DNA from: Pempheris klunzingeri
Taxonomy: Eukaryota > Chordata > Actinopteri > Acropomatiformes > Pempheridae
Direction of reading: 5' to 3'
DNA length: 64,000 bases
Assembly: GCF_042242105.1 (NCBI RefSeq)
Contig: NC_092020.1
Span: 16,212,788-16,276,787 of the forward strand
Positions 2,221-62,975 of this stretch are shown here, piece by piece. A program made the position numbers and the translations under genes. Position 1 is the first letter of the stretch. Each line of letters begins with the position of its first letter. The notes under the pieces were generated by a model. That model was not told the DNA's origin. It was given only the letters and a program-made list of their open reading frames with translations, and searched no databases.

Positions 2221-3906
2221 GTAATTTGTACAGTTTAGTGGTTTGATTGATTGAATTCTCATTTTTAGTCATCCCACTAGAGGCAGACCCCCACTGTGGC
2301 ATATTGGGGTCTTTGCATGAATAAAGGGAGAGCTTTTCACAGTCTGGTGATAATATGGAGTTTCTGGATGATGTTTCAGCCCTTTATTTGTCCTCTTTCA
2401 GTCTGTTTCCATGCTGTTTCTGGTCCTAAACATTCCTTTAAACACCTCTCCAGCTACTTGTGATTCTTCATTGTGTGACACATGTTAGAGGGAGCTGGAC
2501 TTCATTTGACTCTGCTGCATGTATATCACACAAGATTAGATCACATCTGGGTGCTGAACAGGGAGCTTTAGACCCACACTGGAGTGTTTTGGATCCCTGC
2601 ATGAGGTATTCGTCCACTGAAGGAGAAAAAAGTTTTATATTTTCCTTTTTATCTGCAACACAGTGACTATGAAGGTGTATTGGCACTAGCTTCTGTTACT
2701 GAGGCAGCCCAAGACTCAATTCTCTCCCACCATCTAGCCTCTAGTTATATGTTGACACTGTTTCCATCAGAATGAGCCTCTTAAAACCCTAAAAATTGCT
2801 GCAGAGTTTGGTTTAGAGCTTTGAAATTTCATCTTAAAGAGTCAGACAATGCGTTTCAGCACTGAAACAGGCTCTGCAAACACAGCTATTTCATGGATTT
2901 ACATCACCCTTACCACATCTGTTTTACCACAACTTGGTTAATACACTTCTCCACCAGCAGCCAATTTACCACTTAAGATCCTCTGTGACTGTCTGCCACA
3001 GCTGTCATGTATCTGACACGTCAAAGTGGAGAGACATTTGTACTTTCCCCGCTTACAGGAGCTGCTTTTGTAACCATGCCTCCTCTGGAGCAGCACATAG
3101 GTGTGTGGACAGGCCCCACCCTGCCTTTTGTTGGGGATAATGCTCTTTTTTCTTTAGCTGCTGTGCCTCAACTTGTTTCTTTTTCACTTTTCACACACCT
3201 GCCCTCTTCATGCCATGAGTGCCTCAGGGTCCACAGCCTTTAAAGGGGATCAAGTATCTCCTTGTCCCCTCTAATCTGTCCTGAGAAGTAGTTAATGTTT
3301 GATGGGGAAAAAAAACTTCTCTTGATTGGAGGGTTTTTACTGTAACCTCTTGTTCACCTCGTCAGTCTAACATGAAGCAGAGTTTCTGTCCTGATCCTAT
3401 TTAGGAATATGTTTTGTTTTTAATGATGTCTTTTTTTCCCTTTTTTGACCAGCACAGCTTCACTCTGGCCTCTCAACCATGTCTGCTGCCACTGTGTTTC
3501 CCCTTTAATCGACCCTTTTCTTTTCCTCTTTAGGAATTCGTCTGTGAGGTTTGGACCCAGCAGACATTAAAATGCTGGTTTGTTTCCATCAGGCTGAAAT
3601 CCTATTTTCCTGGTAATCTATATTGTAGGAACAAGAGGTCCATTGTTGCCTCGCCACACCAGATGAATCTCAGGCCTGCGTTGCAGCATTGGACTTTGCA
3701 CGCTGACCTCACTTGCATTAGGAGCTATGATTTATAATCAAAGACAAACTGAGGGAGATTTAAGGGGGATTAGTTCCTGTTTGAGGTTGTAGTTGTTTTC
3801 CAGACAAACATGCAGGAATTCAGCCACTTTAGGATAACTTCAGCTGGTTTTTTTCACTCCAGGTGCGTGATTACTTTGTGTTGCTGCAGTGTTTTCCGTC
3901 ACCGTC

Positions 3907-5046
3907 ATGACGCCACGTGACAGCTCCCACCTGACTCACCTGCTGCTGCTCCTCCAGCTCCTCCTCCCACTCGCCCTGTGCCTCCTGCAGCCTCCCCACG
4001 TCCCCACGCTGGTCCCTCACGCGCCGACGCCTCTCATCCGCTCCCGCTTCAGCGCGCGGACCCAGCTGGACTTCACCACGCGCTGCAACTCCAGCTGCTT
4101 CCACAGAGGAGAGCACGAGGCCCTCAGGGAGCAGCTCACGCAGAAGCTGGCCTTTGAGACGCTGTACGCGGACGGATCCCGCACTCTCACCACCGTGGAC
4201 GTGGAGGGTGATGATGAGGAGGGGGGTGTCCCTGCTCACCCGTCACCGTGGAGAGGTGCGGGAGCCAGGATCAGGCACAAGCGCGTGAGGCGGCAGATCT
4301 ACGGAGCAGACGGACGATTTAACATCCAAGGCGACCACTTCCTGCTGGATTACCCTTTCTCCACGGCCGTGCGCATCTCCACCGGCTGCACCGGGGTTCT
4401 CGTGTCTCAGCTGCACGTCCTCACAGCTGCCCACTGCGTGCATGATGGGAAGGATTATGTCAAGGGGGCGCGGAAGCTCAGGGTGGGCTTCCTGATCCCC
4501 CCGTCCATCAACGGCACCAAATCCGGCCTCACTTCTGGCAAGAAGCCTCTGGTCCGCTGGGTGAGGGTGAAACGCACACGCGTGCCAAAGGGCTGGATCC
4601 AGGGCCCGCAGGAGGCCAGCATGGACTTTGATTACGCCCTGCTGGAGCTGCGCTGGCCTCACCGACGCCCCTTCATGCGCCTCTCCGTGGCTCCCTCCTC
4701 CGATGACCTGGCGGGGAACCGCATCCACTTCTCCGGGTTTGACAGCGACAGATCCGGGGAGCTGGTGTACAGGTTTTGTCCCGTGGAGGAGGAGTCCAGC
4801 GACCTGATATACCAGCACTGTGATGCGCGGCCCGGAGCCAGCGGCTCGGGAGTGTATGGGAGAGTTTGGGACAACAGTTTGGAGCGCTGGGAGCGGAAGG
4901 TCATCGGCATCTTCTCCGGACACCAGTGGCTGGAGATAGATGGGGAGAACCGGGACTACAACGTGGCCGTGCGCATCACCCCTCTGAAGTTTGCGCAGAT
5001 CTGTTATTGGGTGCATGGGAACCGACTGGACTGTGTCCAGGACTGA
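3907..5046 (+). CDS. prss23: Serine protease 23-like, secreted
   Basis: Secreted trypsin-fold protease of the PRSS23/PRSS35 family. The 379-residue protein (human PRSS23 is about 383) is encoded in one exon. I chose the ATG at 3907 because the upstream in-frame codon at 3889 is GTG, directly after a probable acceptor (TTGCTGCAG). A leucine-rich signal peptide spans about residues 10-27. A basic RVRR site (126-129) followed by QIYG marks the usual pro-region cleavage before the catalytic domain. The triad is visible as His176 in LTAAHC, Asp242 in DYALLEL and Ser312 in PGASGSG; the GASGS context instead of GDSGG is normal for this family. Conserved stretches include YVKGARKLRVGF, VYRFC and IIGIFSGHQW-like KVIGIFSGHQW. 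An acidic insert (DDEEGG, about 102-107) lies in the pro-region. The physiological substrate is not evident from sequence. It is convergent with cfl1. Confidence 0.92.
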   Translation: MTPRDSSHLTHLLLLLQLLLPLALCLLQPPHVPTLVPHAPTPLIRSRFSARTQLDFTTRCNSSCFHRGEHEALREQLTQKLAFETLYADGSRTLTTVDVEGDDEEGGVPAHPSPWRGAGARIRHKRVRRQIYGADGRFNIQGDHFLLDYPFSTAVRISTGCTGVLVSQLHVLTAAHCVHDGKDYVKGARKLRVGFLIPPSINGTKSGLTSGKKPLVRWVRVKRTRVPKGWIQGPQEASMDFDYALLELRWPHRRPFMRLSVAPSSDDLAGNRIHFSGFDSDRSGELVYRFCPVEEESSDLIYQHCDARPGASGSGVYGRVWDNSLERWERKVIGIFSGHQWLEIDGENRDYNVAVRITPLKFAQICYWVHGNRLDCVQD

Positions 5047-6977: not shown

Positions 6978-9900
6978 TTATATAGGGGATCCTTCCAGGC
7001 TGACTACTGACGAGCCGCCAAGTTTTTCTGCCAGGGTGTGCCGGTCTTTGAGGTCTTCCAAACCGTTCACCTGCCACTCATGCTTAATACCTGAAATTAA
7101 AAAGACAAAAACAAAATAAACACAACAGAATTACAGAGAAATACAAAGAAATAAATCTCACTGTATCACCACATTAAAAAAAGGTTTGGGTCCCTAAAGC
7201 TTTAAAAAAAAGCCTGTCCCTGTAGTGGGATTGCCTAGTAAATGTCTATTGACCAAACTGTTTAATGAGTGGGGCGATGTAATAAATGGGTAAAATCCTG
7301 TGAGAAACTATATGGATTAGCTTATCCAGCAAATATACCTGACAAAGGTTCTTCAGAGAGATGCAAAATAAAAAAAAATTAAATATTGTAAAAAGCCTTG
7401 CTCATTGGTTAGTAAGATTGCCCAGAATAGCTCAGAGGAGAGACTATTTCACTTCATCAAAATGGGCAAGTACCTGAATGTGAAGTGGCCACTGCTAACA
7501 GGTTAACTAGTAGTGAGAGGTCTGTCTGAAAACATGTAGTAAAGATACACATGATGGAGGCAGAACCAGTGACCTGTCCACTCCAGGGTCTTTTGCAATG
7601 ACACGTTCAAAACGTCATGAGATTAGTAAGGGATAATGCCTAATGATGGGAAAAGAAGGCGGCGTGAAGAAGGAACCATCTGACACGCAGCAGTCCATTA
7701 ATTCCTGATTATGGACACCTCAAAGGGCACCCGTGTACAGTTGTTATGTTTGTGAAAATCTGATAGCTAGCTACTCGTCATTAAACAAACGACAGGCCAT
7801 GTGTAACGTCACTGTCGGCTGCAGCCTGAAGCTGCCAGTTGAATGAGAGACGACCATTTATGCTGACATCATCCTACAGGATTGTTGCCCTGGTCTTTGC
7901 AGAGTTTTTAAAGATTGCCAACAAAAACCCCAGATCACAGGCTCACTCCCATGATCAGAGAGCAGCTTGTGTGTAACCGTCTCCATCCTGTGGCGTGAGA
8001 GGACCTGAGGGACCACACTCACTGTTCGCTTGTTGACGTGTTCAATACATTGTAAACAGAGGCTTTGACTGCCTCCCTGTTGCTATGGTTACTCATTTAC
8101 TGTAGCGTGCGCATTAATTGAGAATAGTTTTGCTGGAAATACTTGGTAGGTGTCCTTGCCGATCAGAATCATGTATTCAAGATAATGACATTTAAAACAG
8201 AAGTAAAAAAAGAAATCAAATTAAATCAATATTGAGAGGACTCAAACTGGCTCCACTGACCAGTGATGTCACCCAATATTAATGAACTACAGACACAGAA
8301 GACCACTACTACCACTGTGTCAGTAGACTTAAGAGGGCTACCTTTGGGTATAAGAGGAGATGGTTACTCTTTAAAAAAAAAAAAAAAAAAATGTATTAGA
8401 CTAAGGATGGCTAGTTTATGCTTAAGTTCCTGTTTGTATATTGTTAGACTTTTAAGCAGTATGAATGTTTTTGCCCACATTGGGGCAGCGGAACAAGCAG
8501 CATTTATATCAAACAATTTACACACCCAGCAGACATAAAGCAACATTAACATGTAACCGTATGTCTGACAAATTAAATCTAATATTCACTCAGTTTTGTT
8601 CTCCAACAAATCCAGAGGGAAAAATCTAGTTAAATATGTGGCGACACTGTGCGCTTACCACCTAGACGCCGACTTTGTCTACCTTTTGAGCAGGTTGTGT
8701 GCAGTTATTTTCCCCACTGAAAACAATTTGCCTATTGCTGCCAAAAATAATCAAAACTGCTGTGAGAAGGAACCAAAGTCATGGCTGCTAAACAATGAAC
8801 TCAAAGAGATCAGGTGATAATTCTGGGTGGCGGTCATTTTGTGCTTTCATCACAAAATATTGATTAGTGCAGGTTTAATTTTAGGTATGTTCAGGTGGAG
8901 TTTATTCAAAGCAACAGGTTTCTTTCTTCAGCTTTGTGATTCTCAAACTGCTTTTCCATCAACAAAACTACAATATAAACTGCTATTTACCTTCGAATTT
9001 CCTCTTGATAGCATCTTTTGAGCTGGCATAGATCATCTTGCTCTTCAAGGGGGCACTATCTGGGGCCCTGTGAGTAAGGGGGAAAAAAAATTATTAAAGC
9101 CACGTGCTGTCTTAATGATGGTTATAAACTCTTCAATGCCAGCTCTCACCAGAAGATAAAGACCAGATCCTCCTTCTTCGTTTCTTTGGTCTCATAGGTG
9201 GCGTCATACAGGGCGTAGCGGCAGTCATCTGGCGGCAGCATCTTCACAAAGTGCTGATATGGGTCCTGGACGGTGGTTCCCAAGTCACCCAGCAGGATCT
9301 CTTTGCCATCATCCAGAACAATGTTCTTGAGGTCCTTGCTCAGGCAGAACAGAATGGCCTTCTTCCTCTTCCTCTTCTCATCCTCATTCGCCTGAGCCTT
9401 GCGCACCTTCATGTCATTGAAGACTGCGATAACTTCATCTGTGACTTTCACACCGGAGGCCTGTGGAGAGAACAATCTGTTAACTCGGCGTTTGATGTTT
9501 TCACAGTTTAACATGGCAGCTGCTATTACTTCAGGGTTTTTCTGAAACTGATCATGCTAACGACCGACTATGTTGGTTTTATTTTATTTATGATACAATC
9601 TTTTTATTCACCTTGGATCGATTCAGGAGATCACTACGATGTAAACAAGACATTTTAAATGGGCTTTATTGTTTACTCATAAATGTCAAACTCACCGTTT
9701 CAAGCTTTTCAAATGTGAATATTTGTCTTTTGATTTTTTAAAACGAAATGTTTTGAACTGCTGGCCGGCCAAACCAAGCAGTTTTAATATCTCAACTTGG
9801 GACATTGTGACACAATGACCAAAAAAAATAAGTACAAGTGACAACTAACTGAGAATGAAAGTAAGTCTTAGTTGCAGCCACAGCGCTAGTTTTGCCTGAA

Positions 9901-16525: not shown

Positions 16526-19500
16526 CTAACTAGATTTCTTCTGGCCACCGGTGCTTGTGCCTCTCGACTTGTTCAACACCGCCGTGGTCTGAAAAACAGA
16601 CAGAAAGGGAAGACAGTTAATGTGGCTGCATACTGTATCAAGAGTTTCTCTCAACATATGCTGACTTCTGTTTTTTTGACTTCCGTTTTAAGTTGTGGCT
16701 TAGTCGTTGAAACTGCTCAGCCTCATTTTTACTGCTGTGAGGAAGAGGGGGTTGAGTAGGAGGCGTCAACTTGACAAAAAACTGTGTGGTCAAAGTGAAA
16801 CGGAAGTTAGAGCAACTTCAGTTCCTGTACTTTGACGCGTTTCTGTGTCAAACCGATGAATGACTTTTTAAAACATTTTCTAAGAGAAATCAAGTAGAAA
16901 GGCAGCGCTAACGGGACAGAGCAGTTCGCTTGCAAGGCCGCATGGTTAACCTGTGATTTTTAGCAGCCACACGACCAAAGGCCGTCTCTGATGAAAAGAC
17001 TTGATTTGCTCTCAGAAGGTCAGAAATGACCCAACCTAAGCCAGGGGAAGTGCCTGGCTATAACAGCTTTTGCTTGTTGGTAAACTTTGCCCTGCTGGCC
17101 AAACACACTCTCATACTGTCAACCAATGAAATAACAGCAGAATAAGGAGACAGATAAGGGCCGTCCACACCAAGAAGGATAACCACAACGCTAACGATGT
17201 CAGCATCCACTGTGTCATCGTTATAGTTGTGGTGTGGAGTCTTAACTGTTGTTCTCATATACAGTTTTTGAATATCTCACAGTACATGCTTTTATAAACT
17301 ATCACTAACCTGGAACTTGTTAATGCCATTTTTGTTACCAGTTTCTGGCAGGTGAGTCAAAAACTGGATTACTACTAATTTCTCTTCTCTTTAGATTGCT
17401 GGATGCCATTGATGTTGGGAACGTCAATAGCTCCCTCTAGTGACTTTATGGGTACATGCACTGACAAAAAAGGCTACAATGACATTATTAGGAGCCTGTC
17501 AAACCATGTAGACAGACATGAGTTACTGTCCGCTGCCTTCTGGCCCAATAGTCTCACCTGCTCTAGGACGACACCTGCCGCCTGGTCGATGGCTCCTCCG
17601 ACAGTCCGGTACCGACCGGAGTAGCGGATGAAGGCCCACGCTAGCATGGACATCATGACCACACCCAGAGTGCAGTCACACACCAGGGCGAAGGTAGCCA
17701 GGCCAATGAAGAGCAACACTCCTGACAGCACGTAGAGGAAGCACACCAGGACAAACAGCACCGCGGGTGTCCGGAAGGCGCTGAAGAGATTTTTTGACTT
17801 TTACAGCAAAGAGAAAAAAATAAATGAATATTCAATGTCATAACCACAACACATGCAACAACAACAACAATATAAATAATATGGTATTATTGTTTCATCA
17901 AGTAGAAAAACTGTTTTGTTACCTCATTGTGCTTACTGAACGACTGCCACATTTCCTCCAGCTCCTTTTCCAGTTGTGCTTGGTAACGGTCACAAAACTC
18001 CTGTCCGCCCATCTTCTTGGTCGAGGAGAAGGTGTGAAGAGCCTCTCGGAAATAAAAGTGATGCTTTTCCTCCAGAGAGGCAGGAGCCACATAGGGTAAG
18101 TCTCCCCCACAAACCTGAGAGAGGAAAACAGAGAGAAAAGAGACTCAAGACATAAGGTTTGTAGTCAGGATCACATGATCATTACCAGCCATTACTTGTT
18201 AGAATACAACAGGCTTATACATCCTTCCTCTGCTGATCAAATGGGAAACAAATACAGTCATTCTCTCACATGTAAGTGAACCCACCTTCTCCATGTTCTT
18301 GTAATACTGATCTTTGGCTGATGCCACGGCTGCCAGGTTATTGGCCTCTGCTGTTGCCTGTGAGACAAACAGGGGTACGTTAAATGCAGGGTTCCTACAT
18401 CTTTTCCAAGGTCAACTTCAAGCACTCTCAACGTGCATTTTCTCATTTTAGTACAAAATCAAGTATTTTCAACGATTTTCAGCACCCTGTAAAGGTATTG
18501 GTGTCTAGACAAAAAGGACAGAATTAATTAACTAACACATACCATGAGCATCGTCTTTGGCTGTGGCAAGTCCTCTCCTTGGTAAATCTTGATGTAAGCC
18601 TGGTGAGACAAAAATCGCAACTTTAGATGGTTTGAGTTTAGCAGGAAAACTCAGATGGAAAAGGTGTTACCTTAAAGAACTCGAGCAGGCCGCGGCAGGT
18701 GACCTTGTTTCCATTTATTTCTTTCTCGGCCAGACGGTCAGGATGCAGCAGTTTGGGAATGAGGCTCTGCAGCTGCTCTCTGAACTCTGGGGCCACATCT
18801 GACAACGTAAACACACCCAAACTCAGGACAGCACTCAGGATATTCAGCATTCTGCTAAATAAAAAACCTTAAAACAAACTACAATAGTCTGGAAAACAGT
18901 GGTTCATACCAGAAAGTTGTCCCTGAAAAGCAGGGCTGGTAGCAACTTCCAACCCAGGGTGAGGTAACAAGAAGCAGGAGATTTGGGTGAAGCATGAATG
19001 GATGTGCTCCCTCACTGTTTGCAGCTCCTCATGTTGGGCCTCCTTAACCTTTAAATACCAATGTAACAGAGCGGTGAAATCCCAAACTCAGTATCTAAGA
19101 TCAGCCACGTGTCTTTATTATATTCTGACAAATCAACAAGCAAGAATTGGCACCTGTAACCGTTTATCCAGGAACTCTTTTCCTCCTTTGAACCCGTAGG
19201 TATACTCATAGGGAAAGCTCCAGTCCCTGATTAGGAACATCAGAGACTGTGGGAGGAAAAATACACATTGAATGCATCCAACAATCGAAAGAAGCAATCA
19301 GATGTATCAGATGCAACGATGCATCAAATCTTGTGGTCTCTCTTACCTGAAAGGGCTTCAGAAAGATCTCATCCATGGCAAGACGGCCGTACTCAGTGAA
19401 CAGCTGTGAGGAGGAGGCAGCCATGACTCAAAATTAACACTGAGAGATCTGGAGAGCACCTAATGTTGGTGAATCTAAGACCCGTGTAATTAATATCCTT

Positions 19501-21308
19501 TGGCTTTAACAATAAATAAGACTAAATCTTACAGTCTTGATCATTTTGAAACATGCTTCACTGACCACATCAGAGCATCATCAGGCTGACTCTTACTCAT
19601 GTAAACAGACCTGTAGCTGCTGCAGATCGTCCTCCTGTATGTTCTGTGACAGATTGTAGATCTATAAAAGAGAAACCATGTCAGCATACAATGCGAGGAT
19701 CATTACAGAAAACTAAATCAGTGATAATCAGAGGAGATCAGTCACCTGTATTGAGCTGGTCATGGTGCTGAGGGCAAAGATGGTGGCACAGTCCTTCACT
19801 GTGGACTGATTATCAAAGGCTCCCTGAGTGTCCATCAGCACCACTGCCACCTACGGGAGCACAGAGAAAAAAACACAGTGCATGATATATAAGAAAGGAT
19901 ACTCTTATAAAGTTGTTTTGAATATGTCCATCAAATTATAAACAAATAATATAGCAGTATAAAAGGGTCATCACACATGCAACCATCTGCATTAATGTGA
20001 GATGTTGAGTAAAGTACAGGACACATTATGACCCGTACAAAGGTATAGGTGTATTTCTCCAACTGTAATGTTCCTCTGTGGAGTGATATATAGTTTTCTA
20101 TTGCTTTATATATACAATATATATAACTAAAAGACTAAAAAAGAGAGTGTGTAGTTACACAGATGCATGAAGTCGATATAAGAACAATATGAGATGAATT
20201 TTAAACAAAAATCAGATAGTGATGAAAGTGAAAAAAATACCTTTCATAGAAAATATTTTTAATTATAAACTACTAAGGTCTAAACACTTTGTTTTATTTT
20301 AATTTGTCCGTAACATGTAAACATCCCCCAACATACAGGCATACATACGGTGCATAAACGAACAAATATATTGCTGAGGTACCTCTGTCCCATCGCTCTT
20401 CTGGACAGGGAAAACTTCACTCCACAGCTGGATGCCTGTTGTCTCTGGTTCTGAACCTCCTCTCCAGGAAAATCCAGTCAGAGGCTCATCATCTTGACCC
20501 AGCCAGTTTTCATCACCCTGCAGAAAGACAAATTACACTTTCAGGATCAGTCAGGGGCAGACTGAGGCTTCTCTGCATAACTTAAAACACAAAAAAAGTA
20601 CTAAGTGGGGTGTGAACTCCATCAGGTCATAATTATCTCCACAGTTAACTATTCTTTTGAGTGCAGTGAGTAGCCTGTGGTGGCACTACAGCACATGTGA
20701 TGGAGTTATTCAAATAGAGACTTAACAATGAGCACAGCAAATGTAATACCAAGCATTATTTTAGCCTACAATATATGTGAAGACAAGCAAGCTGAACTCC
20801 ACTCCTTAACAGATTTTATGACTAAATTCACAAGAATCTTTGTTCAGCAAACGAGTTAGTTCACATGTTACAGCAGGGACGGGCATTACTGTAGCATGAC
20901 TGCATAAAGGTTTTCATTCCACCCACAGACTGTTAGTGATTTTCCAGATTATCATACCGTCAGCATCACTTGGGTGTAACCTCCCTGCTGCATAGCACTC
21001 ATTAGTTAACATGACAATATTTCAGCATCAAATAAATCACCTGTAGAGAAGTGATCTTGACTCCTGAATACTGTTGACAGATATGAGACACTGAAAGATC
21101 TCACCTCTCTGTACATGTAACGAAGCATGAAATCAAGCAGGAAGCTCTTGCCCTTCCTGAAGGCTCCGGCCACTGACAGGACAACCACATGTTTGTCTCG
21201 GACCTCAGGAGCCAACAGAACCCGAGCCAAAGCCTCCGTGTCCAAGGCAAAGGAGTGATTCTCCTTACACACTGTGACGATCTGAACTGGGCCTGGTTCA
21301 CTCCCCAT
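16526..21308 (-). CDS. atl3: Atlastin-3, ER membrane-fusion GTPase
   Basis: Thirteen coding exons: 21308-21105 (exon begins 21325), 20517-20383, 19850-19746, 19661-19611, 19403-19347, 19246-19154, 19048-18910, 18798-18671, 18599-18543, 18357-18286, 18114-17923, 17797-17558 and 16588-16526. They encode 511 residues (human ATL3 is 541). Atlastins are dynamin-like GTPases that tether and fuse ER tubules. Visible are the P-loop GAFRKGKS (48-55), DTQG (119-122), the guanine-specific RD in [11 protein letters not shown] (190-191), a helical middle domain, and two hydrophobic segments in the 80-residue penultimate exon. [20 protein letters not shown] and [14 protein letters not shown] mark it as ATL3 rather than ATL1/2. 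The first ATG lies in the second exon; the frame upstream runs to a stop with no other ATG, so the protein lacks the human N-terminal extension. The tail is short and basic (GGQKKSS). Confidence 0.95.
18380..18490 (+). repeat. Interspersed fish repeat fragment in atl3 intron
   Basis: The stretch beginning GCAGGGTTCCTACATC and containing TTCAAGCACT and CAGCACCCTGTAAAGG resembles an interspersed repeat common in teleost introns. Only a fragment is present and the class is unknown to me. Confidence 0.45.
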
Positions 21309-21378
21309 CCTTAAGGTACTGGTCCCTGTGAATACCAGAGACAAAAACATCAGGTTCATATTAGCACTGGAACAACTG

Positions 21379-21635
21379 TAGGGCTGCAACCGATAACTGT
21401 TCTTATTATGGATTAATCTGAATGTCTATAATTTGTCACAAAAAGTGAAAAATGATAAGGTGATAACTGACGGTTCAAACCCTCAAACAACTATCAGTAT
21501 AAAATGAAAGAAAGCATAGAAAAGCAGCAAACAATCACATTTACGAAACTGTGAATCTTTTCTTGATTAATTACTTTAACAATTAAATCAATAAGAAAAA
21601 AAGTTGGTTATTAATTTTCTGATTGAATCAGCACA
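21379..21635 (+). mobile_element. MITE-like repeat GGGCTGCAAC, copy 2
   Basis: It starts TAGGGCTGCAACCGATAAC, and TTGATTAATTACTTTAAC-type sequence lies near the right end. It sits in atl3 intron 1, just upstream of the first coding exon. It is a plus-orientation, diverged copy of the family also seen at 5719-5960. Confidence 0.6.
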
Positions 21636-24798: not shown

Positions 24799-27475
24799 TT
24801 AATATCCGCCACCTGCTAGGTCCAGCAGGGAGCCAGCAGCCTCCTGGGCCTCGGCATCCAGCTGAAGGATCTCCACGGTCTCCAGGTCGAGCTCGGTGTC
24901 ACCAGGCAACACCAGGTACTGGTACTGGTTGGACTGGTAGTAGTGTAGCTCGATGTACCCGCTATCTGATAGGGGGTCCTTCTCCATCTCCCCGCTGACC
25001 TCCTCCTGCTGGTACTCGACCGACTCCATGGTGACGAGCTCCTCATGATCCGGGGTCAAAGGGCACGATGGGTTTTCAGAGAATGTCGGGTTATCATTGG
25101 TTAAGATTTGGGATGAGGCCGTGGAGAGGAGGAGGGTGTGGGTAAGGGGATCTGCATGAGAGAAAAAAACAATAACAGTAGGAAATGACAGATCAGACAG
25201 CAAGACAAAAATATGAATAAGATGTCGTCACGCACGCTGGTTGAACCACTTGACAGATTCTTCAGTGAGCATGTGAGGCCCATATAGTGCATAGGCTTGG
25301 AAATAAAACGAGGGGACATAAAGGAGACTAAGCTAGGCTATTGCTGTGTTGCCACGGTAATAGAAGGTTGTTGCCATGACAACAGAACACAAACACAGGA
25401 ACAATGTCGGATGCTGAGAAAGCTGTAGAGCCGCAGAAAAGCCGCAGGTAATAAAAGTGTCACAGAGGGCTGTTACATGAGTCTGTTATGAGCCTCATCA
25501 TCATTGTCATCATCATCATCATCATCACTGACCTGAGATATCCAAAGAGTCACACACTGGAGGCACCCCAAATTCAGCTCCCTCCAACCTGCAAGAAGGA
25601 AAAATGTTTTATATGTTTTTTTTGCTTGTTTAAAATACATCTCAGTATGAGAGTGTAATTAAAATGTAAAATTATTCAGAGAAACCTCAAACACTACAGG
25701 CAAATTATATTTTACTGCTCTGCTTGGAAAACGGTCCAGAGAAAATGCTGAATTATCAAAAAAAAAACACAACACAGGAATACCCAGGATGCTCACTGGA
25801 GGAATATAATGTAGGGCTGCAACTAATTATTACTTTTGTTCCTATTTTACAATGAATTAATCAATCAGTTTATCTATTAAAAACAGAAAATAGAGAGGGA
25901 TGCCCATTACAATTTGCAAGTTGTTTTATCCACCCAATAGTCTAAAATCCCAAGATATTTATATTAAATCTATTCTGTGAAAAGAAACAAATTCCCACAT
26001 TTTAAAAGCTGGTGCCAGCAAAAGCTTGGCTTTTTTTCCACAAGTGACATCAAAACCAGTCAAATAATTATCTGTAAATTGATTAATCGACTAATTGGAT
26101 CACCACTAATACCAATTATTGACTTTTTGTCTATTATGTGACAGATAAAAGATTTTACAGCATCTTGGCAATCATTAGAAATGGTATCTACTCCACTTGA
26201 TAATCAATTAATTTAATCATCAAGTTAATCCAGGGAACCAAACATTCGTCAGTTCCATCTTCACAGATATAAAGAGCTGTGCTTTTATTTTTTTAATACT
26301 GTATAATAATCAACTGACCACTTTTATAACCACAATTGAACACATAGCTAAATAAGCAATTTTTAACTCTGAATTCATGCAGTAAAAGATTATTTTTAAA
26401 AAAATGTTGCACATACATGAACTGTTTGATTGTACTCACAGTGCAGGCTTGTTAATCAGATTGCTGTTGGTGCTGTGATAACTGTGGGTCTTCCTCAGCA
26501 CCTCAAGGAGTGCCGGCCGGTACTCTGGACACACACACCACAGCGATCCCTTCCCCACTGACTGGAGCAAACATACAAAAACCTCATTGTTAGTCTGAGG
26601 CAACACGAACACATTAGACTGTAAAACAACTGTAACAGTTGTGGAGGACATTATAATAGTTTCCCTATATGGCAGTGTAATTGCTGACTTGACTACAGAG
26701 CAGCACATCTGGATTCAGTGTGCTGTTAAAGGACATTTCAGTGGGATGGATGCTTGAACCTCTGTCCTGTAATATAAGCACGTCTTTGCCCACAACACGA
26801 CGAAGCTGCTCTTAATGTGGAAAGCCTGAGTCATGTCCCCACCTGGCTCTTGTCCCTCTGAATGCGACGGAAGCTCTTGCTCAGGGACAGGTTGTGTCTA
26901 ACAGAGTTCCTCCAGCCTCCAGAGGCTGTCCTGTAGTAGGGGAAATTGTTCACAATCCATTCGTAGATGTCCTTCACTGGAAGCCTCTTGTCAGGTGAAT
27001 CTTCTATTGCCATGAAAATCAGACTACTGAAGGAGTATGGGGGTTTGGACGAGGCTGGAGGAAGAGGCTGGGTGGGTGCGGAGGACTCTAGCTGAGGCAG
27101 TGGTGTCATTTTGGGAAGGGGCTGCAGTGGTAGCAGGTTGCCTCTCTGATGCAGCCAGCTGAGGCAGGTCAGGTCATCTTGGTCGGATATATTTGCCGGA
27201 CTGAGGCGATGTTTGTTTTGTCCTTCAAGGCACTGAGACGCTGTGCAGTGCAAAAGAGGGGAGGAAGAGTGGAAGGAGTCTGCTGTGGCCGGAGAAAGTG
27301 AGGTAGGGGACGGGGGGAAAGAAATAGGTGAAAGTGGTAGGGAGGTGTGACCACTTAAGCAGGTCTGCTGCGGCGAGGAGGAGAAAGGCTGGGACCCTCC
27401 GAAAATGGTAGGACATGTTGACGAAGGTGGCAGTGTGTGAGAGCTACTCTCCATCTCTCTCCCAGGAGGAAACAT
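24799..27475 (-). CDS. Forkhead factor of FOXN2/FOXN3 type
   Basis: Four coding exons: 27475-26843 (exon begins 27502), 26561-26440, 25588-25533 and 25151-24799. They give 387 residues; FOXN2 and FOXN3 are about 430 and 490. An in-frame stop lies just before the ATG. The forkhead domain spans about 144-240: KPPYSFSSLIFMAIEDSP, RLPVKDIYEWI, WRNSVRHNLSLSKSF and, across the intron, GKGSLWCVCPEYR. Upstream, DLTCLSWLHQRGNLL (101-115) matches the FOXN3 element ELTNLNWLHESKNLL. Near the C-terminus, DSGYIELHY and EAAGSLLDLAG match FOXN3 DSGYASQ and EAAGSLLHLAG. It is therefore a nuclear DNA-binding regulator of this subfamily, not FOXN1/4 or FOXR. The N-terminus is Ser/Pro-rich and the linker after the forkhead is much shorter than in FOXN3. 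Its neighbours suggest a third paralog (see findings), so I give no symbol. Confidence 0.9.
25498..25528. repeat. (CAT)n microsatellite next to a splice donor
   Basis: On the minus strand this is a (ATG)n run beginning a few bases after the GTCAGT donor of the third coding exon of the forkhead gene. Confidence 0.9.
25812..26112 (+). mobile_element. MITE-like repeat GGGCTGCAAC, copy 3
   Basis: It starts TAGGGCTGCAACTAATTATT and ends near AAATTGATTAATCGACTAAT. It lies in a forkhead gene intron, in plus orientation. The near-complete length suggests about 300 bp for the family. Confidence 0.65.
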
Positions 27476-28273
27476 CCGGGGTCACTCAGCTGTACCACTG
27501 CTGAAAGACATGACAGGAGTCAGTCAAAGTTACAGCTGATTAATGCACAGCAGGATTAAAAGCGAGCATAAGTCAAGTTTTATTTATACAGCGTGCATTC
27601 ACAATACAATAACAATATGTGCAGCATACAACACCCTGAGGAAAACTACCAAAAACACTCTTCAGGGCAGACAGAAATGATAGTGAAATAACACAGCAAC
27701 TTTGTGTATTTTCTGTTAATTGTTTTTAAAGGAGTATTAAACCTAACTACCAAGCAAAGACAATAGCTCAAACATGCTGGCTAACCAGACTCAAGAGTTT
27801 TAGACTAAAAGAGTTGATGGCAAATGCTGCAGAAAAGAGAAAACTGCACAGCTGGATTAAATGTTAGCTCTCCGTTCCCCTCTGGCGAGCATCCACCACA
27901 CGTCCAAAGTCCACCGTGTGTCCGCTCTTACAGTACCATCTCCCGTGTTAACACACACTAAAGGTGGCCGGTGGACAGGTGCAGGGGTCTCACAAAGTCA
28001 TTGTTCTCTTAGCTTTACATACAGAAGGTGAGCCGGCATCGATTAAATGCCTTTAACTAACTAATCATGGACTTATTGCGTGTAAAAATGAATTCATACC
28101 GCTCTGAAAGTTTGCATGAAATGCCACATGGCTCTCCAACGCAGTTCAGCGGGCAAATGGCGGAACAATATAAAGTTTCATTTAGTCAAGAAAGCCGCCT
28201 TTTCCTCTCACAGGTAACCCACTCGGTGTTATTAGCCAGCGCTGCAGGAGCATAACATTGACCAGCTACTCAC

Positions 28274-28410
28274 CAAGCAACCGAAACCCCTCTACTGGCA
28301 GGACTCAGAGCTGCTCAAATGTCCGAGAGCACGTCGTTGAGAAGTTAAAGGTGAGTTTGTGGTGTTGAAAACTGCAGCCGGACTGAACAGCTCTCCCTCC
28401 GCGGTGTGTT
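28274..28410 (-). other. Forkhead gene noncoding first exon (candidate)
   Basis: A consensus donor (GCTTG then GTGAGTA, exon end at 28274) lies 0.8 kb upstream of the acceptor at 27503 (TTTCAG), with CpG-rich sequence above it (28.3-28.5 kb). The 5' limit is estimated. Confidence 0.45.
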
Positions 28411-28419
28411 GCCGTCCGA

Positions 28420-30188: not shown

Positions 30189-33100
30189 TCACCTGATCAA
30201 GTGAGAGGTTAACCAATATATGATGACTGGCTGAAAGACTGCAGTGGCCACAGTGATATAAAGACGGAACTGAGGTTTGGCACTTGATCCAGTTCCCATC
30301 GAGTCCGAGGAGAGAGAGGGCAGGATCTTCATTTTCAGAGACCGAACCTGTGAGGACGGCACAGAAATGACATGCAAGTTACAAAGCTGACTTCATTAAA
30401 GGAAAAGTTCAACATTCACTTTCTTGCCAAAAGTCAGATGATAATATTGATCATGACCTCTTCTCATGACTGTGTGGTAAATATAAAGCTACAGCAAGCA
30501 GCTAGTTAGCTTAGCACAAGGACTGAAAACAGGGAGGAAAGCTAGCTTTGTTGTGTCCAAATAAAATCATCTACCAGCAACTAAAGCTCACTAATTCACA
30601 CTGTAGCTCCTTTAATCAATCCGTACAAGTGAAGAGCAAAAACACAGTGTGGTTTTACCGGGTTATGTCTCTTGTCTATTTTTTGGCCAGGATCAATAAC
30701 TTCCTAGTGTCTATGCTGGTTGCCTGGCACTGTTACCTTGACAACAATGACTTGCTAGCTGCTGACGCTAACTGTTTCCTCCTGTTTCTAGTATTGTGAT
30801 CAACTAAGCTTCATATTTACTGTACAGACATGAGAGTGGTAATGATCTACTAATTCTTGTCAAGAAATAAACAAGCAAATAAACATATTTCTCAAATATT
30901 AAGTTATTCCTTTAAAAATATTTTTAAAAAATAGAGCTAAAGATTGATAGATTAGATAAAGGATTAAATATATCATCAATGCAATGAAAAACATTTAAAG
31001 CAGTTAAGTCCTGCCTTTGTCTATTTTTCACCACATGTACCATAAAGTGGTCATTGTTCAGGTATTTTAGTATCTAAGCTCTGATGCATTTCGTTGTTTC
31101 ACAAGACATCAACACAGTGTATTTATCCCACCTAATGGCTACACTGGAAAGTTTAAACCTGAGTGTTTACACACCTTGATATATTTTATACAGTTATGTA
31201 TTTCATTGCATTTGCTGCCCTCTTTTCTTTGTGTATTGTTTCTTCATTATTATTATTATTTTACATGATCTTTTTGATCCCCCCTCAAAAGAAATAAGTA
31301 AATACATGACCTACTTATGGTATACAGTAATTAGTTTTAATTACATAGGCAATCAGCATATGTATATGCCACACAGAGGAAACACAATACTGCTGTGGAT
31401 AGGAAATTCATAGTTTTGAGGTTATAATTATGCTTGTGTGGTATTAAATTATACAAAAGTATATTACAGTTATGCCAGATAGTATGTTGACTATTTGTGT
31501 GCAAACTTCAGAACTGTGCTCTACCCAGATTGTTCCAAGCACACAATTTTGTTTATACACAGGCTTTGCTCAAGAATTAACTAAATTAAATGTCCAGTTT
31601 GTAGTAGAGCAATAATCTAATTTTCTGACTTGGTTTGAGATAAAATTTTCCAAAGTGATTTGGATTCCTGTTTCAGAAAAAACCTTTTCAAATACGTCAG
31701 ATTTATAAATGTAGTGGATAATGTCAATATGGACTCAAAATACTTACAATGAAGAACATAAGGGCACAAGAGGACCAGGCGAGGGCCACATAATAACCAT
31801 CACTGCCAAACACTAAGCCGCACAACAAGGTGAAGATCATCCTAGAGGAGAGCCATGAAATAATATCATTATGTCTTCAACTACCTCAACATGAATTTTT
31901 ATTACATCTAAAAATGCCTTATTCACAAAGGTGCCTTTTAACATCTCTGATTTAGCAGTTAATAGGTTAATATAACAGTTGATGTACACAATACTGAAGC
32001 TTTGGTCTAAAAATCATCATCAAATCAATTCGCTTTGTCAGTAAAATAGAATCATATGCATGTGAAGAATAACATGACATTTACCCAACATATTTATATC
32101 CGCTGTAGGCGATGAGATCAAAGGTTGAGAGGTCGCTGTGTACAGTCAGCAGATACAAACTCAACAACATCACCAAGACCTCGATGATGATCCACACGAG
32201 GGCAGTGCTGGCACACAGACCGAGAACCTCTGGGCTGAACCTTCACACAAAGACAATACACCCCTCTTATTTAACTTCTTTGATACGAACATATTTACTG
32301 TGAGTCATAAAATGAATTAGATAAAGACGAATTACTCACCTTTTCTGAATTCCGAGAGCCATTCCAGCAAGTAAAATGTAGGTAATGAAAGCCATAGCTA
32401 CAAGACAAAAAGTACACTTAACACACAGAGTCATTCCAAAATGCTCTGCTATTGACAACTTTGTATATATAGAAAACTTACTTGGTATGTAAAGATCAGG
32501 TGCATTCACATCCTGTCTTGGAGTCAGTGGAGTGTCCCGATGGTAACGGACTTCCCAATCCTGCAGAGACCAGACACACACAGTGTGAATCATCCTGCAG
32601 GATCTAAGACTGTTACATATAAATGATCTTCTTTTTTCATATATTTTCATATAGTGATTTTTCACAAAATCACTATATGAATGTTTATTTTAACATGATA
32701 ACTCAATGATAAATTAGAGGTAACATTGGTAGATTATCCATTACAAATAAGAGTGGAGTAAATACAGAATTTAATATTACTTTAGGTCTTTTTAGCAGAT
32801 TTGTTGACAATAATCACCATACTCCTATAGCTATAAAGCTATAAAGTACTCTATGCAGACTCATAGACTCAATGAAACCTGCATTCTTTCTAATGGCGAC
32901 AGCCAAAATGCCAAACTTAAGGCTTCAAAACGTTAAAACCAATGTGTGTAAATACTATGCGACCCTAGTCGTGTAAGGATTGTTTGCACTGTGTAGTTTG
33001 TATATTATCAGGGAACAGAATGTTTGGAGTGGTGACTTAACCTACAATCTGAATAAGTTAGTGCGTGGGAATTAACTGAGCTCAATGTGCTTTTATATCC

Positions 33101-35269
33101 ACACTGGCAGTCACAGCATTATGATGTCCATAAATACAGCTGGAGTGGTGATTAACTGGCTGATTACCTTGTTTGCATGGTTTCAGTGTGATAAGTTGTT
33201 GAAAATATGATACCAGAGAAAATAATCATGCATTCTTTCTTTTTTGGGTCGTCACGTACGTTGATGTGGGACAAAGTCTGATGGGATGAATGGCTCTGAT
33301 TACCTGATGCGTATAAGGGAACATGAGGATCATAAGTTTCTTCAATACATATCTGGTGTCCACGGCAAAGAAGTATTTCAGCTTGTTCACAGACATGAAT
33401 CTGCTGATCTGAAAGGCAAAGGAAGTGCAAACATTAATTTGACAGATGAGGAGTGACAGTTTGCCAAAGTTAACAAATACAGCTGAGTCATAGTCATTTT
33501 TAAAGAAGGCTGTGTCTGCCCTCAGGATTGTGCATCACTTTGGCTTAAAATCCAGTCTACGTATTTTAACCACCTATGTACCAAAGTTGCCAATCCAGTA
33601 GGACAACATAAGTTTTATTTATGTGCCATTTAAAAGTAATACAATTACTTCAATTGTTCTCCCTTTTTTCCTGGGTGAGGAAATTTCCCAACTGTCATTC
33701 TATAAGTGGACCAGAAAATGGTTTGCTTGACTGAAAGCCTGTTCCCTCGAAATGATTGTCTGTAAGTTTCAACTGTGAAAAGGTTCTGGATGTGGCTAAT
33801 ATCAGACAAAGGAGCATTGAAGAGTAGCTGAAGAGCAAAGTGTATCAGACTGGGCCTGGAGTGACCATGTTAATGAAGTGGAGTTGTTCTCTAAGTTGAA
33901 AATGGTGAACTTGTTTGACGCAGGAGTCACTTTTGGGACAAAAATATCACATAATTTAAGAGTTGAGCTGTGTTTACATCTGTATGCTTGGTCATACAGC
34001 TACAGAGAAACTTTAAATCTGTGTTTACAACAGTCAATTTGTGATTTAATCACTTTGCAGGTATAATGTAGTGCCAATTGCACAATCAAGGACTTGAACT
34101 TGTTTATAGGTTACTGGGTTAACCTCATCTTGCATACAGCACCATACATCACATCTGAAGACTGTGAATGACCTGCTTTTCCTCACCTCTTTGTTTACCA
34201 TATCCTTTCCTTGGTTGGCTAATGAGGAGCCATACATCATTGCAGCATTGGCCATTGGGTCTGTAAACAGGTTGTCCATACCAGCACCTCCGTGCATGTC
34301 ATTTGAGGGCCCTGCCAAATTGTAGCTCGGAGTGTAGTATGCTTGACTGTTCACTGCTGGTGCTGCAGAGCTGGTGTCGTCAAACAGGACAGAGTCTGCT
34401 GTGGGGTTAGCGGCACGAGCTCTTGGCTTAGCTGTGGAAAAGGTGGATGCAACAAAGTGAATGAAGTGCATTTGAATTTCTATTCAAAAATTCATGGAGG
34501 TACTGGCTTATTATCCACAACATCAAATGTAGACATACATACAAACATACTGAAATCCACCATAACTGGTTAATATGTTAATCCTTAAGTCTTTCACTAA
34601 GCAAGAGAGAAACAATGTGAGAGAAACAATGTTTTGTGAAGATAACATGAGGAGTTAAATACTGTTGTGTTGCTGAGCTTTTGTAAGAAATTTAATACAT
34701 TTCACTACAGTCATTGCAAAAGGCCTTAATCCATTGTTTAAATTACTATCAGAATCAGAACCAGAATCACTTTAAGAATCCCCAGGGGGAAATTGCTTTT
34801 TGTTACACACAGCTCCAAAAGAATAACAATAAGAATAAGAATACACTTCAATATGAGCGACTCTCAAAGTCTTGTCATCGTGCCTTACCTTCATAAGATA
34901 AGGCATGATTACAAGTAGTACACTGTTCAAAACGTTCAACAGAGGTGTAGATTCAACTTCATGGACATTTTGGAGGTTGCAGTTTGTGATGCAGTTGAAG
35001 TGTATTACATTATACTGACAGGTATTTCTAATATCTTTATCCACCTCACGTGTACCAATTAGCATAGACAGTATAACCTTCATGCAGCTATGATTTAATC
35101 AAGTATTCATGTGACAGCACCACTTGAGCCCTGTGTGTCTTGCATTTGTAAGAAAACAGGAAATTGGCACTATGGGTGGATATTAAGCAATTTTTTTTGC
35201 AACCCTGGTAACTGATAATGATTCACATTTCCACTTACTTGCTCGGTACCCATGATGTGGCAAGTCCAT
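30189..35269 (-). CDS. yif1a: YIF1A, ER-Golgi transport membrane protein
   Basis: Eight coding exons: 35269-35239, 34431-34187, 33408-33304, 32560-32482, 32397-32340, 32240-32085, 31841-31748 and 30347-30189. They encode 308 residues (human YIF1A is 293). YIF1 proteins partner YIPF/Yip1 proteins in the early secretory pathway. Landmarks: a soluble N-terminus with LFDDTSS and [35 protein letters not shown] with [27 protein letters not shown] (first membrane span); [46 protein letters not shown]; and the final span [14 protein letters not shown]. About five membrane segments are expected. The FQPxIIYWLT ending and FPYTHQ favour YIF1A over YIF1B, as do the neighbours. All splice phases join correctly. 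Confidence 0.95.
30396..30915. mobile_element. MITE-like element, both ends present
   Basis: The left end TTAAAGGAAAAGTTCAA is mirrored at the right end by TTAAGTTATTCCTTTAA. This gives an inverted terminal repeat of about 17 bp with a few mismatches around a 520-bp element in the last yif1a intron. Internal sequence (TTAGCTTAGCACAAGGACTG, AAGCTCACTAATTCACAC) matches a repeat I know from other percomorph genomes. There is no coding capacity. A TTAA end resembles piggyBac-type insertion, but this is not proven. Confidence 0.6.
32646..32681. repeat. Perfect 16-bp-stem hairpin in yif1a intron
   Basis: TTCATATAGTGATTTT (32646-32661) is followed by a 4-base loop and its exact reverse complement (32666-32681). 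Confidence 0.9.
34748..34860 (+). repeat. Interspersed fish repeat fragment
   Basis: ATCAGAATCAG, CCCCAGGGGGAAATTGC and TTGTTACACACAGCTCC match the tail of a repeat common in teleost introns, possibly of LINE origin. Only a fragment is present, in yif1a intron 1. Confidence 0.45.
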
Positions 35270-39508: not shown

Positions 39509-42088
39509 ATGTATCGAAACTTTGGGGGTCAAGGAAGAGGCAGTCCAGCGTACACAGCCGGCAGCTCAGGGTCAAACTCTGTTTCCCTGGGAAGCAGCAG
39601 CACTTCAACCACACAACAGGAGCAGGTAGGTGTCGGTGAACCAGGCAACAGGTTATCACACACAGTTAGGGGTCATACAGCATGTCAACTAAGCTAGAAA
39701 AGTAAAATGTAACATTTGTGCAGTTAAGCAAGTTGTTATACTCTATGTGTATGTAATAAAAAGTCAAACTAGATATATGTATATATAATGATCATGATAT
39801 GTTTTACTTTAATTACTTTGTATTTAGGCCCTAGACACCATTTATTTTGTTATTGATCATCATCTGTCTACACTTGTCCACTAACTCCAACCACCTTCTC
39901 TTTTTCATCAATTTTTCCAGAAATTTACAATGGCTGGCAGCAGTCACTTTGTGCCAAGCCTCAATGCCATCACAACCAACCAGGACCTTCAGTGGTTGGT
40001 CCAGCCCTCCCTCATGCCCTCGCCGGGCCCCTCACGATCTCCAGTACCTCCTTACCCATCCCTCTCAGGGGCAAGGCCGCTGGGCCCACCACCTTCCCAC
40101 TCCCAGCTTTACAGATCAGGGGTCATAAGAGCAGCTGCAAATCCCACTACTTCAACCAGGCGCAGGAACGATGAACATGTAAGAAAGTAGTCCTTAAATA
40201 ATGTAAACTTTGTTTAAGATACATAGTGCGAAAAAGACATATGTTGAAGAGAGTCTGATATTTGTGGATTTGTTGCATTTCTTCTGTTTAAAAACTCAGT
40301 GTTGTCAACTTGAGGTAAAACGGAGCTCTATTGGGATTTGTATTTTTCCTAGAGGGGTTGCAGATAGCAAGGTGTGGACTGCAACTCAATCATTTCTGTG
40401 AAACTAGTGTGTAATATCCTGTAGTGTACTATGACACAACTCTAGTATTTCCTTTAGACTTACACAAATTGCTCCATTTAGAGGCAGGACAAGGATAAGA
40501 AAAGATTATTTAGACATGCTATTTCACACGTCATTTAAATACGTTTTCAGTTCTTAGGTAGTTTAAAAAAGGAAAACTTGCTACTCAGAGGCAAACACAC
40601 ACTGTTTATGTTCTTTGGTGTTTACTTTTAGTCAATGTTGACTCAGTGAAATGATCATCTTTGACACACTGTTTGCAAAGATCTGCTTTTTGTTAGCAGA
40701 CCAATGTTACATGTCAATACTAGATAGCGTGGATGTTAAAGTGACCCAATTCCACGCAACTTTAACCTTAAATGCCATCATCAAGCTCGCCACCATCATT
40801 TGTTTCATCAGGAACACGTTGGCACACATCCCCGTCAGTTTTGTTCTTGGAGTTGTAATTTCATGGTACAGGAAGTGGATTGTCATGTGACTCACAGGGG
40901 CAAGTCATTTTCTATGACTCACACCTGAGTCACTACTGGGGTCTGAGCTGACTCATCACCCCGAAAGGGCGGGAAACATTGGATGAACATCAATTATTCA
41001 GTAGGGCGCTGGATGAAGTCAGAGTCAGTGTGTTACAAAGGCACAAAAGCTCAGACTTCTCAAAATCATTCACCCGCCATGATTGTGATGACTCAGTGCA
41101 CACACATGGTGGTAGTGTTTCTCCTGTCTCATGTTGCCTGTGCTGGACTCCCAACATGTCTCCTTATACATTTGAAATTTTGAATGTTGCTTTTTGCCCA
41201 AAGCAACAAGGTTTCACAATCCAACTTGACACGTGAAAGAGTTTGACTCACTGTGTATGGTTAACCTATTTCATGTGTTTAATCTTTTTTTCTTCTGTGT
41301 CTCAGTTGTTGTCCCAGGAAGAGATGGAGAGACGCAGAGTAAGAAGGGAGAGGAATAAACTGGCGGCAGCAAAATGTCGCAATCGCCGTCGGGAGCTGAC
41401 AGACACACTTCAAAATGTGAGTGAACATTGTACAAAAGTCACAGCATCAATGCAAAGCGCTGGTCTCAATCAGGCATGAGAGGATTTACAAATATATATA
41501 TCTGTCTTTCTCTGCTTGTCCCTGGTGTAGGAGACTGACCAGCTGGAGGATGAAAAGTCACGTTTACAGAAGGAAATAGCTGAACTACAAAAGGAAAAGG
41601 ACAAGCTTGAGCTGGTCCTGGAGGCTCACCGTCCCATTTGTAAAATAGAGGACTCTGATTCGGATTCTGACCCAAATCCATCAATTTCCTCTTTGGGAGG
41701 CATCAAAATGGAGCCAGAAGACTCTGGGACACCTGGACGCTCAACCAAACTGCCGACAAAGATGGAGAAGCCCAAACCAAAGATAACCATCCCCAGCAAG
41801 CCCGTGGCCGCGGCTGCCTCTGCTATTGTCACTGAATCAGAGTCGCTCCACACCCCAGTTCTCACATCTACTCCCTCTCTAACGCCCTTCACAGCTGGTA
41901 TGGTCTTCACCTATCCCTCTGCCCCGTTAGACGCCAGCTCCTCGGTCACGTCTCACGCCGCGTCACAGCAGGGAAATGCCCCACAGCCTTATGCCCCACA
42001 GCCCTGTGGGATAGCTCATCGACGCAGCAGCAGCAGTGGTGACCAGTCCGATCACTCCCTGCACTCCCCGACCATCCTCACTCTGTGA
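39509..42088 (+). CDS. fosl1: Fos-like 1 (Fra-1), AP-1 bZIP factor
   Basis: Four exons, 39509-39625, 39921-40178, 41306-41416 and 41531-42088, encode 347 residues. The four-exon layout, with the basic region in exon 3 and the zipper running into exon 4, is that of FOS family genes. The basic region [20 protein letters not shown] (134-153) is essentially invariant in Fos proteins. The heptad leucines are L160, L167, L174, L181 and L188. IKMEPED is a sumoylation-type site. The C-terminus [12 protein letters not shown] matches the FOSL1/FOSL2 ending. Fra-1 dimerises with Jun proteins on AP-1 sites. The short length and the ccdc85b-fibp-efemp2 neighbours favour FOSL1 over FOSL2. Short upstream frames at 39257 and 39261 would lie in the 5' UTR. 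A 3' UTR rich in ATTTA-like sequence precedes the poly(A) signal. Confidence 0.93.
40639..41250. promoter_or_regulatory. fosl1: Cluster of seven AP-1 sites in fosl1 intron 2
   Basis: Perfect TGACTCA or TGAGTCA heptamers lie at 40639, 40888, 40915, 40926, 40949, 41089 and 41244 (start positions). Four of them fall within 68 bases (40888-40955). Mammalian fosl1 is known to be autoregulated by intronic AP-1 sites, so this is very likely an enhancer bound by Fos/Jun. Confidence 0.75.
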
Positions 42089-45108: not shown

Positions 45109-45711
45109 TCAGTCGTCAGGTGAGCACACCAGGTGAAGCTGGTCTGGGCTTCCCACGCTGCCTGTGCTTGAGCTGCCGTCCCCCAGGTCCCGGGCCACCA
45201 TGCAGGGCAGGTTGAGCTCGGTGGACCCTCCGGGGCTGGAGTCACTCCTGCTGACACACTCCTCCTCCAGGACCAGACACAGCTCTTTCAGGTCCAAATT
45301 CTCCTTCACCAGCCCGTCCTGCATGCGCTCCAGGTCGGCGAGCTTTTTCAAGTAGCCGCCCAGGTCCTCCCGCATCACTTTGGCTGCGTGATGCCCGAAC
45401 AGCTGCCATTCCCTGGCCAGCTTCTTCACTTTGAGCCGGTCGTCGTCCAGGAAGCAGCACAGGTCCCGCAGCTCCACGTTTTCCTCCTGCAGGCGCTGAT
45501 TGATGACTTTCAGTTCCCTGATTTCAAGGAGGTGTCCCTGCAGCTGTTTATTTACCTCTTTTATCAGCCGTCCTCGCTGGATGAGAGCTGATATTTTATC
45601 CGACTCCTCTTTACGCAGCCGGCTCACCAGCTCCTCTTTGGAGCACGCCAGCAAATCCTCGTCAGACATCTTTGACAGCTCTCTATTTATTATCTCGCCG
45701 TCGCTACCCAT
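45109..45711 (-). CDS. ccdc85b: Coiled-coil protein CCDC85B (DIPA family)
   Basis: An intronless 200-residue frame (human CCDC85B, also single-exon, is 202). The family core is visible: MSDEDLLACSKEELVSRLR, then a long coiled coil with QGHLLEIRELKVINQRLQEE, LRDLCCFLDDDRLKVKKLA, REWQLFGHHAAKVMREDLGG and LKELCLVLEEEC. A Ser/Gly-rich tail (SSPGGS, GSSSTGSVGSPDQ) follows. CCDC85B is described as an adaptor and transcriptional corepressor that binds partners through its coiled coil; nothing in this sequence adds to that. CCDC85A and CCDC85C are longer and multi-exon, so length and neighbours support B. It is convergent with fosl1. Confidence 0.95.
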   Translation of the reverse strand: MGSDGEIINRELSKMSDEDLLACSKEELVSRLRKEESDKISALIQRGRLIKEVNKQLQGHLLEIRELKVINQRLQEENVELRDLCCFLDDDRLKVKKLAREWQLFGHHAAKVMREDLGGYLKKLADLERMQDGLVKENLDLKELCLVLEEECVSRSDSSPGGSTELNLPCMVARDLGDGSSSTGSVGSPDQLHLVCSPDD

Positions 45712-46560
45712 TTTCTATTAAAAACCTACACCTAGAGGGTACCTGAGAGTATATTAAAAGCGCTGAGATGTAGCTGGATGCTCAACACATCACATCCTCG
45801 TCTTCATCTGCATCCAGCGTGTTCCAGATGTCATGTGTGCGATCACGACAGCACCGGAGGCCAAATCATAGCAGAAACATGTGATATCTTTAATTAGATG
45901 GCTTTCTTCGAGGCGCTGTGACTTCAGTGTTATTTTGTGCCGAACCCAGTGGCTGATCTCCGTGGGCAATGTCTTAATGAGGTCGTGTATGAAAATGCAC
46001 CGCAACCCCCCGTTAATGTCAGTCTGTCATCCTCTCAACAGCAGGCTGTGCTCCCCAAAGGCCTCCAAGACTACAACTGTCCTTATTTTACCTTCTCTCG
46101 CACTATTTTGAAGGCAACAGCCGCCCCGTGGGCTCTTCTGGACTGGACGTACCGAGGCCTGGTCGATCCACGGAGGCTTAATCCAGCAGCCTCGGATGCA
46201 CACCCTGCAGATGTGGTGATTTTTACATCGCTGGCATCGTCTCATCAGGCTCGCCTCGGCTGAATGAACTCCGGTGGCTGGAGGATGAGTCCGTACGGTA
46301 CAGCAGCTTTTCTGTCTTCCCTTTTCCCAAAAAAACGATTCACTCTTTTGAGACAAAAACAAAATGAATCACAATCCAAGCACGTCTTCTATCCGCACAC
46401 AATAAATGCATCATCTGTGCTCATCCTCCGGGGCTGGACTCTTACCACAACAATGTCCGCCTCCGCCACTTTCACGGCTGTGACTCCGTTAAGCAGCGAG
46501 CTGCGCGTCAAGCTGTTGCAGTACCGGAAGTCGGTCTTTACGGCCTTCAAAATAAAAGCG
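45712..46560 (-). promoter_or_regulatory. ccdc85b: ccdc85b upstream GC-rich region
   Basis: Moderately CpG-rich sequence extends about 0.8 kb upstream of the ATG. An ETS-type CCGGAAG lies at 46524. The ccdc85b start site is probably within the first 200 bases. The far part could be a separate promoter, but no transcript can be supported. Confidence 0.35.

Positions 46561-62940: not shown

Positions 62941-62975
<35 letters not shown>

Follow-up and report, generated by a model that had tools for sequence, protein, structure and literature searches.

The window, a 64,000-nucleotide stretch of chromosome C9 of Pempheris klunzingeri (chromosomes are written here as C plus number), contains an intact forkhead coding gene on the minus strand at 27475-24799, surrounded by genes of several other families (Table 1). 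The forkhead gene is real. Its model, predicted from the sequence, has four exons and encodes 387 amino acids (1,164 nt with the stop codon); all three introns have GT/AG borders, and an in-frame stop lies three codons upstream of the first ATG. Forkhead was the sole Pfam domain found in the protein (residues 143-226; 110.5 bits, cut-off 27). The nearest solved structure among 46 PDB matches was that of human FOXN3, at 149.3 bits, with the next at 89.4 bits. Three motifs stand out, LSWLHQ at residues 105-110, CVCPEYR at 220-226 (as the initial annotation had read it) and EAAGSLL at 374-380. A stretch 5' of the gene, at window positions 28400-28500, looks GC-rich by eye and could be a promoter.

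Table 1. Features recognised in the window, with positions counted from its first nucleotide.
Feature	Position	Strand	Basis or remark
Trypsin-domain ORF, prss23-like	3871..5046	+	Domain match
Cofilin gene exon	9146..9556	-	Domain match
Atlastin gene (atl3 position)	17477..21425	-	Bounds follow the recognised exon frames, not the gene ends
Forkhead gene exon 4	24799..25151	-	Acidic C-terminus ending in EAAGSLLDLAGGGY, then stop
Forkhead gene exon 3	25533..25588	-	56 nt; end phase 1; based on GT/AG borders and frame only
Forkhead gene exon 2	26440..26561	-	SVGKGSLWCVCPEYR, wing 2; end phase 2
Forkhead gene exon 1	26843..27475	-	Ser/Pro-rich N-terminus, LTCLSWLHQ motif, about the first 69 forkhead-domain residues; end phase 0
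Probable 5' UTR part of exon 1	27476..27500	-	3' of candidate acceptor ctttcag; predicted by eye
YIF1 gene	32336..34483	-	One exon above the Pfam cut-off, one below
Fos-family gene (fosl1 position)	39885..42088	+	Fos-type bZIP match
CCDC85 gene (ccdc85b position)	45109..45714	-	Domain match
Calcium-binding EGF (EGF_CA) exons (efemp2 position)	62646..63547	+	Domain match

We take the neighbours to be atl3, cfl1, fosl1, ccdc85b, efemp2, prss23 and yif1a, paralog-level names that are assumed or carried over from the initial annotation. The YIF1 gene, with the forkhead gene on one side and the Fos gene on the other, was absent from the initial list. When searched alone against Pfam, the last exon of the Fos-family gene gave no bZIP match. 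The C-terminal exon of the atlastin gene (17474-17800) scored just over the Pfam Oleosin cut-off (25.2 versus 25), which is probably a hydrophobic-hairpin look-alike. Approximately 33 kb before window position 1, at C9:16179318-16180325, there are split forkhead exon matches that are presumably FOXO. These FOXO-like exons, and the presence of snx12 and slc7a3 within the salmon interval described below, suggest that genes of Xq13 type, among which we count FOXO4, adjoin the 11q13-type block in teleosts.

The same neighbour set occurs in Salmo salar around LOC106604710, 'forkhead box protein N2-like' (alias foxn3), at chr5:32325001-32475000 in Table 3 of PMC7147387. That interval of the table lists serine protease 23-like, cofilin-2-like, atlastin-3-like, YIF1A-like, fos-related antigen 1-like, CCDC85B-like, FIBP-like and EFEMP2, and further ubl3, snx12 and slc7a3 (PMC7147387). 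When the salmon genes are ranked by LOC number, the seven from serine protease 23-like to CCDC85B-like, the forkhead gene included, and EFEMP2 follow the order of the window, provided that these numbers run along the chromosome. The salmon gene is represented here by one line of a sweep table, so that the two loci are compared by gene content rather than by sequence. The initial annotation had named atl3, cfl1, fosl1, ccdc85b and efemp2 as neighbours; all of these families were found in the window, and the paralog names agree with the salmon table. If the salmon and window genes are orthologs, the gene predates the split of the salmon and P. klunzingeri lineages.

On its sequence characters, the window gene is a member of the FOXN2/3 subfamily, as initially proposed from the forkhead domain, LSWLHQ and EAAGSLL. 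Across 94 forkhead-domain columns it is 66% identical to fish FOXN3 (foxn3 on C18), 67% to human FOXN3 and 63% to fish foxn2 (on C12), versus 44-47% to three FOXN1/4 rows. The window gene, foxn2 and foxn3 share a phase 0 intron inside the domain, before GKGSLW (exon 1|2), and a phase 2 intron at exon 2|3; the phase 1 intron at exon 3|4 is matched in foxn2, giving three shared positions and phases with foxn2 and two with foxn3. The two FOXN1/4 genes that were read have the GW.NSVRHNLSL core in common with the window gene but split the domain after FPYFK, a position at which the window gene has no intron. Upstream of the domain, an acidic and LSWLHE-type motif aligns with the same-genome foxn2 and foxn3, as does the EAAGSLL-LAG ending. 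These shared introns and motifs place the gene in the FOXN2/3 subfamily, and the introns held in common rule out a processed copy (retrocopy).

Resemblances to the two known members are mixed. Like FOXN3, the window protein has a similar wing-1 region (DKSQS / DRSQS); it differs in its acidic C-terminus, in lacking the KKRR cluster and basic tail, and in the block where its gene lies. With FOXN2 it shares CV.PEYRP, whereas its exon 4 is unsplit (split in the fish foxn2 model) and its block is again a different one.

In a seven-row forkhead tree without an invertebrate root, FOXN2/3 including the window gene was separated from FOXN1/4 with support of 100/100. The window gene was placed with FOXN3 at 89/87; its position relative to human and fish FOXN3, which distinguishes a sister of all FOXN3 from a gene inside teleost foxn3, had support of 39/0. 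Joining FOXN2 and FOXN3 to the exclusion of the window gene was 3.16 log units worse and was not rejected (p-AU 0.088), nor was a grouping of the window gene with foxn2 (p-AU 0.182). The end branch of the window gene is long (0.52), and long-branch effects are therefore possible. Site by site, 17 positions separate both FOXN3s from foxn2, and the window gene agrees with FOXN3 at 9, with foxn2 at 3 and with neither at 5; its FOXN3-like states may be ancestral. Fish and human FOXN3 differ at 8 of the 94 domain sites, where the window gene has the fish state once, the human state twice and neither at 5.

The gene has also changed at 17 of the 94 domain sites, all of them common to both FOXN3s and foxn2, and this, with the long branch, is what a gene decaying towards a pseudogene might look like. 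We give that reading almost no credence: the frame is open across four exons, splice sites are intact, the NSVRHNLSL core is retained, and the gene is annotated in the salmon table.

Genome searches recovered three FOXN2/3-type genes, foxn3 (C18), foxn2 (C12) and the window gene (C9). A genome-wide scan with a forkhead profile yielded 89 matches at exon level. With the window protein as query there were 54 matches, three of them to its own exons, followed by foxn3 on C18 (66%) and foxn2 on C12 (61%), with the rest at 55% or below. All 7 matches to the C-terminal half of foxn2 were on C12, C18 and C9. Neither foxn2 nor foxn3 turned up a second time in these searches of an assembly that may be incomplete. 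Pattern searches for stray relatives returned 10 matches in viral and 114 in prokaryote contigs, none of them confirmed. At C20:14661344-14661550, a 67-aa frame containing an in-frame TAA gave a 101-bit forkhead match, which marks either the edge of an exon or a broken copy.

The families surrounding the window gene recur on a limited set of chromosomes. CCDC85 had 7 genome matches (C18, C9, C12 and C3, plus a partial one on C13 that exceeds the cut-off at 36 bits), atlastin 4 (C9, C3, C13, C12), FOS-type bZIP 16 (C9, C4, C13, C18 and one weak match on C21) and reticulon 7 (C13, C12, C3, C4, C14, C23), with 2 of the 6 reticulon chromosomes (C14 and C23) lying outside the blocks. Two or more of the four families occur on six chromosomes, C3, C4, C9, C12, C13 and C18, a count that left out the partial CCDC85 match on C13 and the weak FOS match on C21. 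With 24 chromosomes of equal size assumed, the three FOXN2/3 genes would all land on this set of six with a chance of approximately 0.016, a weak figure when taken alone; the weight of the block evidence lies more in the place of the window gene between atlastin and YIF1/FOS/CCDC85. C12 and C3 have CCDC85, atlastin and reticulon in common, and C13 and C18 have FOS genes in common. C4 was considered as the teleost-duplication (3R) sister of C9 for its FOS gene, which is flanked by calpain and DUF5577 genes. Taking DUF5577 to be C19orf47 and the C4 FOS gene to be FOSB, C4 reads as 19q13-like and was rejected in that role for this reason. We thus read C18/C13, C12/C3, C4 and C9 as ohnologous blocks, C9 being 11q13-like. 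The block names are assigned from assumed human positions, except that of FOXN3. In the available text of PMC6555274, FOXN3 is placed at human 14q31.3-q32.11.

By this assignment, which depends on those assumed human positions, the C9 block is not the 3R partner of the foxn2 (C12) or foxn3 (C18) block. A teleost foxn3 duplicate would be expected on C13 and a foxn2 duplicate on C3, and the genome searches found neither there. It is this that makes an early-vertebrate (2R) ohnolog the best reading. The tree's lean to FOXN3 (89/87), the 39/0 support for separation from fish foxn3, the 9 of 17 FOXN3-like sites and the lack of any other foxn3 duplicate in the genome searches could also be accommodated by a fast-evolving foxn3 duplicate of 3R or later origin that moved into the C9 block. 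This is unlikely, given that the foxn3 block pairs with C13 rather than C9 and that a relocated copy must have hit the gap from atlastin to YIF1 inside an ohnologous block. By rough arithmetic, the approximately 30 kb from atlastin to CCDC85 make up about 5e-5 of the genome and a 2-Mb block 0.3%. Moreover, the fish state is shared at just 1 of the 8 sites that differ between fish and human FOXN3. A relocated teleost foxn2 duplicate is very improbable. The 'N2-like' name in the salmon table, the p-AU of 0.182 and the shared CV.PEYRP speak for it, but the foxn2 block pairs with C3, and the foxn2 state is missing at 14 of the 17 sites that separate FOXN3 from foxn2.

The window gene is therefore likely to be a third member of the FOXN2/3 subfamily that arose as an ohnolog in the early vertebrate (2R) duplications. 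A paralog from the vertebrate duplications had been proposed initially, and this origin agrees with the FOXN2/3 membership, a block apart from C12/C3 and C18/C13, the finding of no further FOXN2/3-type locus and the same neighbourhood in salmon. Inside FOXN2/3, the tree leans to FOXN3 (89/87), with 39/0 for the place of the gene against human and fish FOXN3. The gene would have persisted in the 11q13-type block in salmon and P. klunzingeri at least, and is probably missing from mammals, with humans appearing to have lost it; no FOXN2/3 gene is known at human 11q13.

Proteins of the FOXN2/3 group are bispecific for FKH and FHL sites, according to the available text of PMC7062188. There, a glycine at the FOXN1-314 position is described as apparently required, and perhaps insufficient, for FHL binding, and FOXN3 Lys138 and the LIQALK helix are mentioned (PMC7062188). 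The window protein retains this Gly before the helix-3 Trp (GGWRNSVRHN; domain column 45 corresponds to FOXN1 Gly314), the Lys (column 26, FOXN3 Lys138) and an Asn (column 48), and the helix-3 core NSVRHNLSL is kept. The residue following GW is Arg, versus Lys in FOXN1-3, and the counterpart of LIQALK is LLEVLR, without a proline. With the Gly, Lys and Asn retained, recognition of FKH and FHL sites would be expected to be kept.

The C-terminus has diverged more visibly. The description of the gene as short holds for its tail, with 117 aa from the matching intron versus 164 aa from ESDID in the fish foxn2 model. These last 117 aa contain 1 K/R versus 24 D/E, as compared with 25/26 in the 164 aa of the foxn2 model and 23/25 in a 175-aa part of the foxn3 last exon, so that a strongly acidic C-terminus stands against two approximately neutral ones. 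Neither the KKRR or KRPRR cluster that precedes EAAGSLL in foxn2 and foxn3 nor the basic tail that follows it was present in the window protein. The FOXN3 C-terminus is described as a repressor that binds SKIP (PMC6555274, available text). Judged from residue composition, the shortened acidic end without basic cluster and tail would probably give the window protein an output and nuclear import unlike those of the FOXN3 repressor.

The fullest scenario, a third FOXN2/3-class gene of the vertebrate ancestor that survived in ray-finned fishes, was lost in mammals and is now an acidic-tailed regulator with the same bispecific recognition, is tentative and, as a whole, rather doubtful. If it were true, an acidic-tailed regulator derived from a FOXN3-like repressor could oppose foxn2 and foxn3 at shared sites, and the vertebrate ancestral forkhead set would gain an extra member. 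An additional paralog may then buffer or oppose knockouts of foxn2 or foxn3 in fish, and a third gene could account for ambiguous 'N2-like' and 'N3-like' names in fish.

The gene is already in databases under a generic name, as the salmon 'forkhead box protein N2-like' entry illustrates. Genes named 'forkhead box protein N3-like' appear for ayu (PMC11764881) and salmon chr 9 (PMC7648306), in passages that make no tie to this block. Searches of open-licence literature found no paper describing a third FOXN2/3 paralog. We also considered Xenopus 'FoxN6' as a possible relative of the window gene. One fish study reports, in its available text, six foxn/foxr members (foxn1-4, foxr1 and foxr2) and gives FoxN6 as an old human and mouse name of FOXR2 (PMC6109588).
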